Shown here piece by piece: positions 19,439-21,047 of a stretch of 40,720 bases of DNA (positions are counted from its first letter, which is position 1; every line of letters begins with the position of its first letter). The DNA is from Chitinophagaceae bacterium (GTDB lineage: Bacteria > Bacteroidota > Bacteroidia > Chitinophagales > Chitinophagaceae), in assembly GCA_027484165.1 (NCBI GenBank), contig JAIXWH010000144.1, forward strand, positions 1 through 40,720, read 5' to 3'. The notes beneath the pieces were generated by a model. It had not been told where the DNA came from and ran no database searches. It saw only the letters and a list, made by a program, of their open reading frames with translations. The position numbers and the translations under genes were made by a program.

Positions 19439-20002
19439 ATGATTAAAAAAATTCCAGGAGAAATTTGGAAACAAATGCAATTCTCAGGTCACAAAAACCT
19501 AAAAAAGAAATATGCAATCTCAAATCATGGCCGTGCTGCGAGCTACACCGAATCTGTTGCTAAAGATGGTAATCTTTTAAACGGATCGCTCACATCAGGT
19601 TATCGTACCCTAAATCTACATGTTGAAAATGGCAATGGAACTATTTATTTACACCGTGAGGTTGCAAAATTATTTTGCAATAAAAAATCTCCGAAAGCCA
19701 AATTTGTAATTCATGTAAATCATAAAAAAACTGACAATACCTCTAAAAACTTAAAATGGGCAACACTTGAAGAAGTTAGTACTCATCAACAAAAAAGTCC
19801 TTTAAAGATTGCTTACAAAAAACGTCAGGCAGCTCGTACTGTAGGTTTGAAACTTACACTGGCTCAGGTGAAAGCAATCAAAGACACCATTAACAATCCA
19901 AAAAGAAAATTAACCTACAAACAATTAGCTACTAAATATAAGGTAAGCGAAATGACCCTCTATCGTATTAAAAGCGGTGAAAACTGGGGAAAGGTAAAAT
20001 AA
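19439..20002 (+). CDS. NUMOD4 / HNH-type protein with C-terminal helix-turn-helix
   Basis: 187 residues, strongly basic. Residues about 5-45 (GEIWKQMQFSG then YAISNHGRAASYTE) form a NUMOD4 module, a DNA-binding module of homing endonucleases. Residues about 60-125 look like an HNH_3 domain: YLHREVAKLFC, then HVNHKKTDNTSKNLKWATLE. A C-terminal segment (LTLAQVKAIKDTINN and LTYKQLATKYKVSEMTLYRI then KSGENW) is a helix-turn-helix. Free-standing homing endonucleases have this layout, but no intron or intein is seen nearby, and such genes also occur as stable chromosomal genes. It could act as a nuclease or as a DNA-binding regulator. A terminator follows. Confidence 0.8.
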   Translation: MIKKIPGEIWKQMQFSGHKNLKKKYAISNHGRAASYTESVAKDGNLLNGSLTSGYRTLNLHVENGNGTIYLHREVAKLFCNKKSPKAKFVIHVNHKKTDNTSKNLKWATLEEVSTHQQKSPLKIAYKKRQAARTVGLKLTLAQVKAIKDTINNPKRKLTYKQLATKYKVSEMTLYRIKSGENWGKVK

Positions 20003-20020
20003 AGTCTCTTTAAATTTTTC

Positions 20021-20052
20021 AAAAAGGAATCAGAAAACTGGTTCCTTTTTTA
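20021..20052 (+). terminator. Intrinsic terminator after the HNH-type gene
   Basis: AAAAAGGAATCAG, loop AAAA, CTGGTTCCTTTTT: a 13-pair stem with one G-U and a T-tract. Confidence 0.9.
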
Positions 20053-20057
20053 TGCTC

Positions 20058-20256
20058 AAAAAAATGGCCCATGATAGAAATCAAGGGCCTTGCTTACCTC
20101 TGAAACCACAAGAAAATCTTTAGAAGGTAATCTATTAGTATGTAATCTGTGTTAAGCAGAACAATGTCAAATCAGTCATGTTTGTGCTACTTACACATGA
20201 AATTCCGCATTAAAAGCTTTTGATAAGATAATTTGAGAGGATTAATTCCGAAGTCG
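20058..20256 (-). ncRNA. Candidate structured small RNA of about 200 bases
   Basis: This 454-base gap (20003-20456) has no convincing reading frame. On the minus strand TAATTTTG (20261-20268) is a -7 element, and about 195 bases downstream GGCCC (20085-20089 complement) pairs with GGGCC (20066-20070 complement), with an inner GAT/ATC, followed by ATTTTTTTG: an intrinsic terminator. Between them CCTCT-c-AAATT (near 20240-20230) can pair with GGTTT-c-AGAGG (near 20107-20097) to close the molecule, TCATGT/ACATGA (20176-20200) forms a hairpin, and TCTG/CAGA (20146-20160) another. I do not recognise a known RNA family; 6S RNA was considered and cannot be supported. The rest of the gap, 20269-20423, shows only AT-rich sequence. 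Confidence 0.45.
20060..20089 (-). terminator. Minus-strand intrinsic terminator of the candidate small RNA
   Basis: On the minus strand GGCCC-tt-GAT-ttct-ATC-at-GGGCC is followed by ATTTTTTTG. It faces the plus-strand terminator of the HNH-type gene 8 bases away and has no protein-coding gene upstream of it on its own strand nearby. Confidence 0.75.
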
Positions 20257-20423
20257 AATACAAAATTAACATTCGTGTTCGCATCACATAATTTTTTGAC
20301 ATTTATTTTTCAAATAATTTTTTCTGGGCTCCTTAAATTCATAATGTATTATATTCATAACTCTTTGTTTTTAATGACTATATGCTATTAAAAGAACATT
20401 TTTCACTTTATTAAAAATAAAAA

Positions 20424-20443
20424 ACTAATAAGTGTTAGTTTTG
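20424..20443 (+). promoter_or_regulatory. Palindromic operator overlapping the regulator promoter
   Basis: ACTAATAAGTGTTAGT (20424-20439) is an imperfect palindrome that matches the site at 22135-22150 (ACTAACGATTGTTAGT). It overlaps a -7 element TAGTTTTG (20436-20443) of the TetR gene, whose ATG is at 20457. This implies autoregulation by the TetR protein. Confidence 0.75.
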
Positions 20444-20456
20444 ATAAAATTTTGCA

Positions 20457-21047
20457 ATGGCAAAAATTATCGCAACCAAAAACAGCTCAAAAAAAGAAGT
20501 AATCGCAAAAAAGGCAGCAGCACTTTTCAGAAATAAAAGTTTTGCTGCTACCTCTATGAGAGAACTTGCCGAAAATATTGGAGTGGAAGCTTCAAGCCTC
20601 TACAATCATATCGGATCAAAAAATGAATTACTCCAAACTATCTGCTTTAAAGTTGCTAACGATTTTACCATTCACTTAAATGAGGTTGAAAAAAATACAA
20701 ACAGTTCCATCATCAAACTTGAAGAGCTGATACGTTTCCATATCAATATGATGCTATCGCATTCGGATGAAGTCTTTGTTGCCAATCACGAATGGAAACA
20801 ATTATCTGAACCTTTTCTCAGCAATTTTATGAACCAGCGTAAGTCTTATGAAAACAGGTGGGTTGAAATCATTAAAGATGGAATCAGAAAAAAAGAATTA
20901 AAAAATCTAAATCCTCATATTACAGTGTTAACCATTTTGTCTGCTGTAAGAAGTGTTGAGTTTTGGCAACGACATAAAAAAAGCATTGAAAGCAATGATT
21001 TAGAAAGCAACATTATCGATCACCTTTTAAATGGTCTTATTAAATAA
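20457..21047 (+). CDS. TetR family regulator of the paa cluster
   Basis: 196 residues. The N-terminal TetR DNA-binding domain covers about residues 12-60: VIAKKAAALFRNKSFAATSM then RELAENIGVEASSLYNHIGS with KNELLQTIC, a canonical helix-turn-helix. The C-terminal ligand-binding part is helical and typical of regulators sensing acyl- or aryl-CoA. It probably represses its own operon and the paaABC promoter through the two matching palindromes, and phenylacetyl-CoA is the likely inducer by analogy with PaaR-type TetR regulators. paaE starts five bases after its stop, so regulator and reductase form one transcript. Confidence 0.9.
   Translation: MAKIIATKNSSKKEVIAKKAAALFRNKSFAATSMRELAENIGVEASSLYNHIGSKNELLQTICFKVANDFTIHLNEVEKNTNSSIIKLEELIRFHINMMLSHSDEVFVANHEWKQLSEPFLSNFMNQRKSYENRWVEIIKDGIRKKELKNLNPHITVLTILSAVRSVEFWQRHKKSIESNDLESNIIDHLLNGLIK

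Follow-up and report, generated by a model that had tools for sequence, protein, structure and literature searches.

A putative small RNA gene of Chitinophagaceae with a near-constant core next to its terminator

The closest described systems are GibS and FopS, which the accessible parts of two reports present as intergenic small RNAs (sRNAs) of Bacteroides, each combining an intrinsic terminator with an extended seed that is unpaired and highly conserved (PMC7366714, PMC11697453). According to the same parts, the sRNAs act through these seeds on the start regions of mRNAs such as those of susC homologues and are bound by the RRM-1 protein RbpB, and FopS occurs as 12–15 paralogous copies per genome and is also phage-borne (PMC7366714, PMC11697453).

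Here we describe an RNA gene in a 40,720-nt stretch of DNA from a Chitinophagaceae bacterium (contig JAIXWH010000144.1; hereafter the window), whose genome measures 2.5 Mb and is spread over 158 contigs. As far as the available text on GibS and FopS allows the comparison, which is one of architecture and not of sequence, this too is a Bacteroidota intergenic sRNA in which a conserved stretch is combined with an intrinsic terminator; paralogous copies and phage copies are found, and Chitinophagaceae genomes hold RRM_1 genes and no Hfq. Judged by that text, the seed of GibS and FopS lies at the 5′ end, whereas in the window's sRNA a ~140-nt leader comes first and the conserved stretch is next to the terminator, and the window's sRNA is mostly present as one copy per genome, in contrast to the 12–15 copies of FopS. 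To our knowledge, trans-acting sRNAs have barely been characterised in Bacteroidota outside Bacteroides, and among the matches listed in a search of the open-access literature there was no sRNA of Ferruginibacter or Chitinophagaceae. Since the sRNA is found across many genera, mostly in single copy and with a kept gene order, results obtained in one species would speak for Chitinophagaceae.

Locus and predicted parts of the sRNA gene

The gene lies in a gap of 454 bases (20003–20456) between a NUMOD4/HNH-like gene and a TetR gene, and only one ORF of at least 40 aa falls wholly within this gap, a TTG frame of 52 aa on the plus strand. The original prediction had described the gap as free of a credible frame and had proposed in it, from a minus-strand −7 element and a strong minus-strand intrinsic terminator, an independent RNA for which it recognised no family. 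All of these points found support: the −7 element has TTATG 18 nt upstream, the hairpin is followed by a T-run, and the two ends bound a unit of ~197 nt (Table 1), the 5′ end of which was assumed to lie ~7 nt past the −7 element (near 20254). The last GG of the core supplies the first two bases of the terminator stem. An inverted repeat that adjoins the gene probably terminates the HNH-type gene and may double as a back-up terminator on the minus strand. Taken together with the conservation and covariation described below, the sequence argues that the gap holds a genuine, uncatalogued sRNA gene that is under selection as RNA.

Table 1. Features in and around the sRNA gene (window coordinates)
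Feature	Position	Strand	Basis
Promoter: TTATG (20291-20287), 18-nt spacer, −7 element TAATTTTG (20268-20261)	20261..20291	-	Sequence and recurrence in copies
Predicted sRNA transcript, ~197 nt, frame-free	20058..20254	-	5′ end assumed, 3′ end within T-run
Variable leader, ~140 nt	20113..20254	-	46% mean pairwise identity, 42 copies
Core CUUGUGGUUUCAGAGGUAAGCAAGG (CTTGTGGTTTCAGAGGTAAGCAAGG)	20088..20112	-	Taken as unpaired seed or binding site
Intrinsic-terminator hairpin, DNA GGCCCTTGAT-TTCT-ATCATGGGCC, RNA GGCCCUUGAU-UUCU-AUCAUGGGCC	20066..20089	-	Sequence, covariation
T-run of seven, one A after hairpin	20058..20064	-	Sequence
Inverted repeat AAAAAGGAATCAG/CTGGTTCCTTTTT adjoining sRNA gene	20021..20050		Repeat search (I3)
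Convergent 187-aa NUMOD4/HNH-like gene	19439..20002	+	Two Pfam matches just below cut-off
Divergent TetR-family regulator adjoining paa-type genes	20457..21047	+	Pfam

Searching Rfam 15 (4227 families) at gathering and at lax thresholds yielded no family above gathering for the window's sRNA or for the sister RNAs scanned, and in the whole window only a tRNA at 687–758 reaches an Rfam gathering score. The best below-threshold match, ncr1015 (RF02449; E 0.0036, 34 bits versus a gathering score of 60), spans two neighbouring terminator hairpins with the core aligned only loosely, and was judged to be due to chance. RNAs of the 6S type are similar in that the window's sRNA could be a housekeeping RNA without a frame; this candidate was rejected, as the sequence lacks a long closing stem with a central bubble and matched none of the 6S families in Rfam at E up to 10.

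Conservation and distribution

We found that conservation is concentrated in a 19–25-nt stretch adjoining the terminator, an element absent from the original prediction. Among 33 aligned copies, 32 were identical at all 25 positions of the core, the exception being one tandem copy with a G to A change; these copies are BLAST finds from 30 of 32 matched genomes, made with a 221-nt query that leans towards well-kept parts. Omitted from the alignment were G007, which has one core change, G031, which was unread, and short second matches in G014 and G022 that belong to another RNA. In the strong loci read from other genera the 19-mer GTGGTTTCAGAGGTAAGCA was present in 17 of 17, with both flanks slightly different. 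Both the set of at least 120 19-mer copies and the 42-copy set were selected for the 19-mer (with AGG behind it), and since the copies were chosen in this way the 100% core identity of the 42-copy set arises mostly by construction and the 33-copy figure is the fairer one. At the level of sequence, a near-constant 25-nt core beside fast-changing flanks, with a leader that is only 46% identical on average, is an unusually sharp signal of selection.

The terminator stem shows compensatory change in four of its ten pairs, with 99.2% of cells paired, and its covariation of 0.215 compares with 0.075 ± 0.015 in shuffled controls, while slid partners reach no more than 0.084. Covariation in relatives, which had been suggested at the outset as a check on the RNA, is thus seen in this stem. 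In copies from named genomes, a hairpin stands directly behind the 19-mer in 119 of 120 among the matches listed, and a hairpin with a T-run (at least six T in 12) in 111 of 120 among the matches listed versus 7 of 1200 shuffles. An automatic terminator scan did not list the terminator at 20089–20066, a miss that we read as the effect of an uninterrupted-stem rule, because a single T-T mismatch interrupts the stem.

Folded on its own, the sRNA sequence exceeds chance only mildly (z −1.75; 9 of 200 shuffles did equally well). The original prediction had envisaged one closed molecule containing two internal hairpins; this proved to be the minimum free energy form of that sequence alone and is not conserved: besides the terminator, no conserved variable helix was present in 42 full-length copies. 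RNAalifold placed a small helix within the core, in invariant columns where covariation neither confirms nor excludes it. Pairing between leader and core averaged −12.6 kcal/mol versus −12.3 kcal/mol in shuffled sequences, and 5 of the 42 copies beat 90% of their shuffles. What sets the sRNA above chance is its conservation in 31 of 35 other same-genus genomes together with the covariation of the terminator helix.

A promoter pattern, T[AT]T[GA]-N17-19-TAnnTT[TA][GA] at 90–220 nt upstream of the core, which was written after viewing the sequences, was found in 42 of 66 genus-type copies versus 4.9 ± 2.0 in shuffled sequences. A stricter form was present in 25 of the 66, and 23 of these 25 have an 18-nt spacer. 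Among the other copies the pattern was found in 9 of 77 versus 3.0 ± 1.4 shuffled; a promoter outside genus-type copies is weakly supported. From promoter box to terminator, 42 full-length copies measure 162–235 nt. The genus leader bears a recurrent 5′ motif, CUCCAAU ... AUCUUAU ... AAAGC; within the first 75 nt of 42 leaders, CUCCAAU was found in 18 (versus 0.4), UCUUAU in 22 (versus 2.6) and AAAGC in 22 (versus 2.2), a recurrence that shared ancestry can explain.

Using the 221-nt query in a BLAST search of 59 genomes, we found matches in 31 of 35 other genomes of the same genus (32 matched genomes including the window's own) and in none of the 23 genomes from the rest of the order. Four of the 35 same-genus genomes gave no match to this query, and the same-genus genome G233, complete in a single contig, had no sRNA match either. 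A covariance model (R1) was built on the final 61 nt of the sRNA; among 298 genomes of the order, it matched 33 at E ≤1e-3; the 25 strong matches (E ≤8e-10) were all in Chitinophagaceae, and those of the weaker matches that were read were a sister RNA. Among 295 genomes of the class R1 gave five matches, of which two were strong and lay in the window's own genus and the other three had no core. Within the family, R1 matched 71 of 294 Chitinophagaceae genomes and 22 of 101 genera at E ≤1e-6, with one match each in 64 of the 71 positive genomes; the other 79 of the 101 sampled genera had no match at E up to 1e-6. We saw no convincing copies outside Chitinophagaceae in these samples of the order (298 genomes) and the class (295 genomes), and the original suggestion of an RNA of the phylum was not supported. 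Of 80 titles among the 19-mer matches listed, 79 were Bacteroidota (Chitinophaga, Sphingobacteria and unplaced Bacteroidetes) and one was an 'uncultured bacterium'. Tandem copies of the sRNA module, ~140–160 nt apart, were observed in G005 (two copies, L006) and G011 (three copies, L007).

Gene order was read around 34 genus loci, in flanks of up to 1.5 kb on both sides, with one member of each group of neighbours named by Pfam, and the counts are lower bounds because the loci are short. HNH-type relatives were found in at least 24 of the 34, TetR genes in at least 26 and a DUF2461 gene in at least 26; a cupin gene in the same direction lies just upstream in at least 15 of the 34 and in at least 15 of 17 loci from other genera. 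Because neighbouring genes are kept across loci, comparison of the loci indicates that the sRNA gene is inherited mainly in place. The NUMOD4/HNH-like gene at 19439–20002 resembles a stable resident rather than a stray homing endonuclease, as its relatives occupy the same place in 24 of the 34 genus loci.

Sister RNAs and copies on viral contigs

Weak R1 matches led to a sister RNA, here called type 2, which consists of GGUGUUUUUCAUAGGUUAGCA and a hairpin and is found in several Chitinophagaceae genera (host loci L056–L060, L258, L259, L261–L263 and L335–L339; viral contigs L264–L271); we know of no name for it. The type-2 hairpin covaries, with six of nine pairs changed on both sides and 94.8% paired across 15 sequences. 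Like the window's sRNA (type 1), type 2 has about 20 constant letters followed by a covarying hairpin, and by eye the hairpin tip (UUUCUA or close variants) seems common to both. Type 2 differs in the letters of its core and, in several hosts, in having the core directly after the promoter with no long leader. A covariance model built from type 2 alone (R2) and searched against 296 genomes of the phylum found the window's sRNA at E 3.8e-5; the kinship of the two types is suggestive only, because this search also gave a match outside the family, at E 2.0e-5, that is probably due to chance. Type 2 contains UUUUUCAUAG, the antisense of CUAUGAAAAA, a sequence similar to a common start region.

Eight viral contigs carry type 2, and by eye the hairpin is present in each. 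Two of them, L267 and L271, look like one phage, and L268 is close to it; in L264, L269 and L270, type 2 begins 4 nt after a tmRNA gene. For type 1, positions 252–310 of the viral contig L183 comprise the window's 19-mer and a hairpin unlike the window's. This element lies ~100 nt behind a stretch that Rfam matches as tRNA and ARAGORN leaves uncalled, and the phage genes of the contig are those for a DnaB helicase, terminase, portal and head. The case for type 1 on phages is thin, consisting of this one contig. A relaxed 18-mer was found in 19 viral contigs and was rejected as chance, as a hairpin with a T-run was present in 0 of the 18 besides L183; a variant 18-mer was found in one viral contig, by eye without the hairpin. 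The window's element was unmatched in a collection of phage records and a relative's copy of the sRNA was unmatched in a collection of plasmid records, while type 2 gave one short weak match to such collections.

It is conceivable, although we consider it doubtful, that types 1 and 2 make up a class of Chitinophagaceae RNAs in which the constant core of ~20 nt and the hairpin tip jointly serve as a handle for one host factor. Phages would have captured both versions behind tRNA or tmRNA genes, from which the RNAs would be freed by tRNA 3′-end processing, either to occupy this factor or to mimic the host regulator. Whether phages borrow a host riboregulator could be tested directly on these copies.

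Another RNA of same-genus genomes (L244, L246–L248, L250 and L251, and partly L245) contains GUGGUUUCAGGGGUAA, or sequences close to it, in the same orientation as part of a longer, differently folded structure. Its fold beats shuffles in L248 (z −3.09), while z is −2.20 in L246 and only −0.74 in L244. The three of these RNAs that were scanned were unmatched in Rfam. In one genus (L255, L256 and L257), the variant units CUAGGACUUCAGGGCUAAA and GUUAAGGUUUCAGAGCUAAA, each followed by a hairpin, stand in tandem ~100 nt apart.

A proposed regulator and alternative readings

We put the probability that the sRNA is a trans-acting, base-pairing regulator with the core as its seed at roughly 55%. RNA polymerase would begin at the Bacteroidota-type promoter on the minus strand, cross the fast-changing leader and end at the covarying intrinsic terminator, steps to which comparison lends strong support. 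The near-constant core before the terminator would remain single-stranded. As an extended seed, the core would pair in trans with target mRNAs and alter their translation or stability, and the weaker conserved motif near the 5′ end of the leader may hold a second contact site. Transcription of the sRNA, the unpaired state of the core and action in trans by pairing are what we infer from the sequence. A possible partner is an RRM-1-type RNA-binding protein rather than Hfq: RRM_1 genes were present in 10 of 10 Chitinophagaceae genomes and Hfq in 0 of 10, which led us to reject an Hfq-dependent sRNA. Of the two roles first offered for the RNA, regulator or housekeeping, the former is the better reading, albeit with no target found, and the latter is unlikely because 79 of the 101 sampled Chitinophagaceae genera have no match.

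Complementarity of the core to start regions was not in excess among 633 start regions in 800 kb of G026 or 319 in 400 kb of G205, 5 of 20 shuffles being as strong in each. Many of the top start-region matches in these two genomes were TTACCTTTG boxes upstream of the start codon, which resemble promoter −7 elements, and target prediction is confounded because these boxes nearly complement the core (CAGAGGUAA). For the type-2 core the share of strong duplexes at starts was 0.147 versus 0.077 ± 0.021 and 0.176 versus 0.104 ± 0.025 shuffled, but this pairing was rejected as start-specific since coding windows were equally high (0.167 and 0.246). In 19 same-genus genomes we found no perfect 18-mer complements besides the RNA genes themselves; 16 susC-type starts, inspected by eye without a control, had no common site; and complementarity to 16S and 23S rRNA was not above that of shuffles.

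The lack of enrichment at starts or in rRNA would also fit a second reading, possible but tentative, in which core and hairpin are a protein-binding module through which the RNA titrates or guides either an RNA-binding protein (RRM-type or other) or RNA polymerase, with mRNA pairing not its main role. This would suit a core that is near constant over 25 nt, which is longer than the usual pairing seed, as well as a hairpin tip that looks kept between both RNA types (by eye) and the occurrence of GUGGUUUCAGGGGUAA in the same sense in the differently folded RNA of relatives. However, the leader of such an RNA should be dispensable, yet it carries a recurrent motif, and the module has no known partner. 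Also against this reading, a pairing seed of 30–50 nt is described for Bacteroides GibS in the accessible part of its report (PMC7366714).

We consider it improbable that the core is a cis element of termination or 3′-end processing without any function in trans, even though the hairpin follows it directly in 119 of 120 copies among the matches listed and the sister element lies 4 nt behind tmRNA genes in three viral contigs. A loose scan for motif plus hairpin over 1.2 Mb of two genomes, the hairpin rule of which missed the one known gene in that stretch, gave one match that is probably due to chance, which argues that the core is no general terminator. The kept gene order and the gene's own promoter also speak against a purely terminating role.

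That the RNA is no independent gene and is instead processed from the cupin gene upstream as its 3′ UTR appears very unlikely: a same-direction cupin gene does precede the RNA in at least 15 of 34 loci of the genus and at least 15 of 17 from other genera, and the promoter is weak outside the genus type, but the window has no upstream cupin gene, its neighbour being the divergent TetR gene, and the promoter pattern is present in 42 of 66 genus-type copies. A tiny peptide encoded by the core can practically be dismissed, since the frame that is readable by eye (TTG TGG TTT CAG AGG TAA) has no conserved start region that we could see, its codon positions are all equally constant, and variation in the hairpin follows pairing and not codons.
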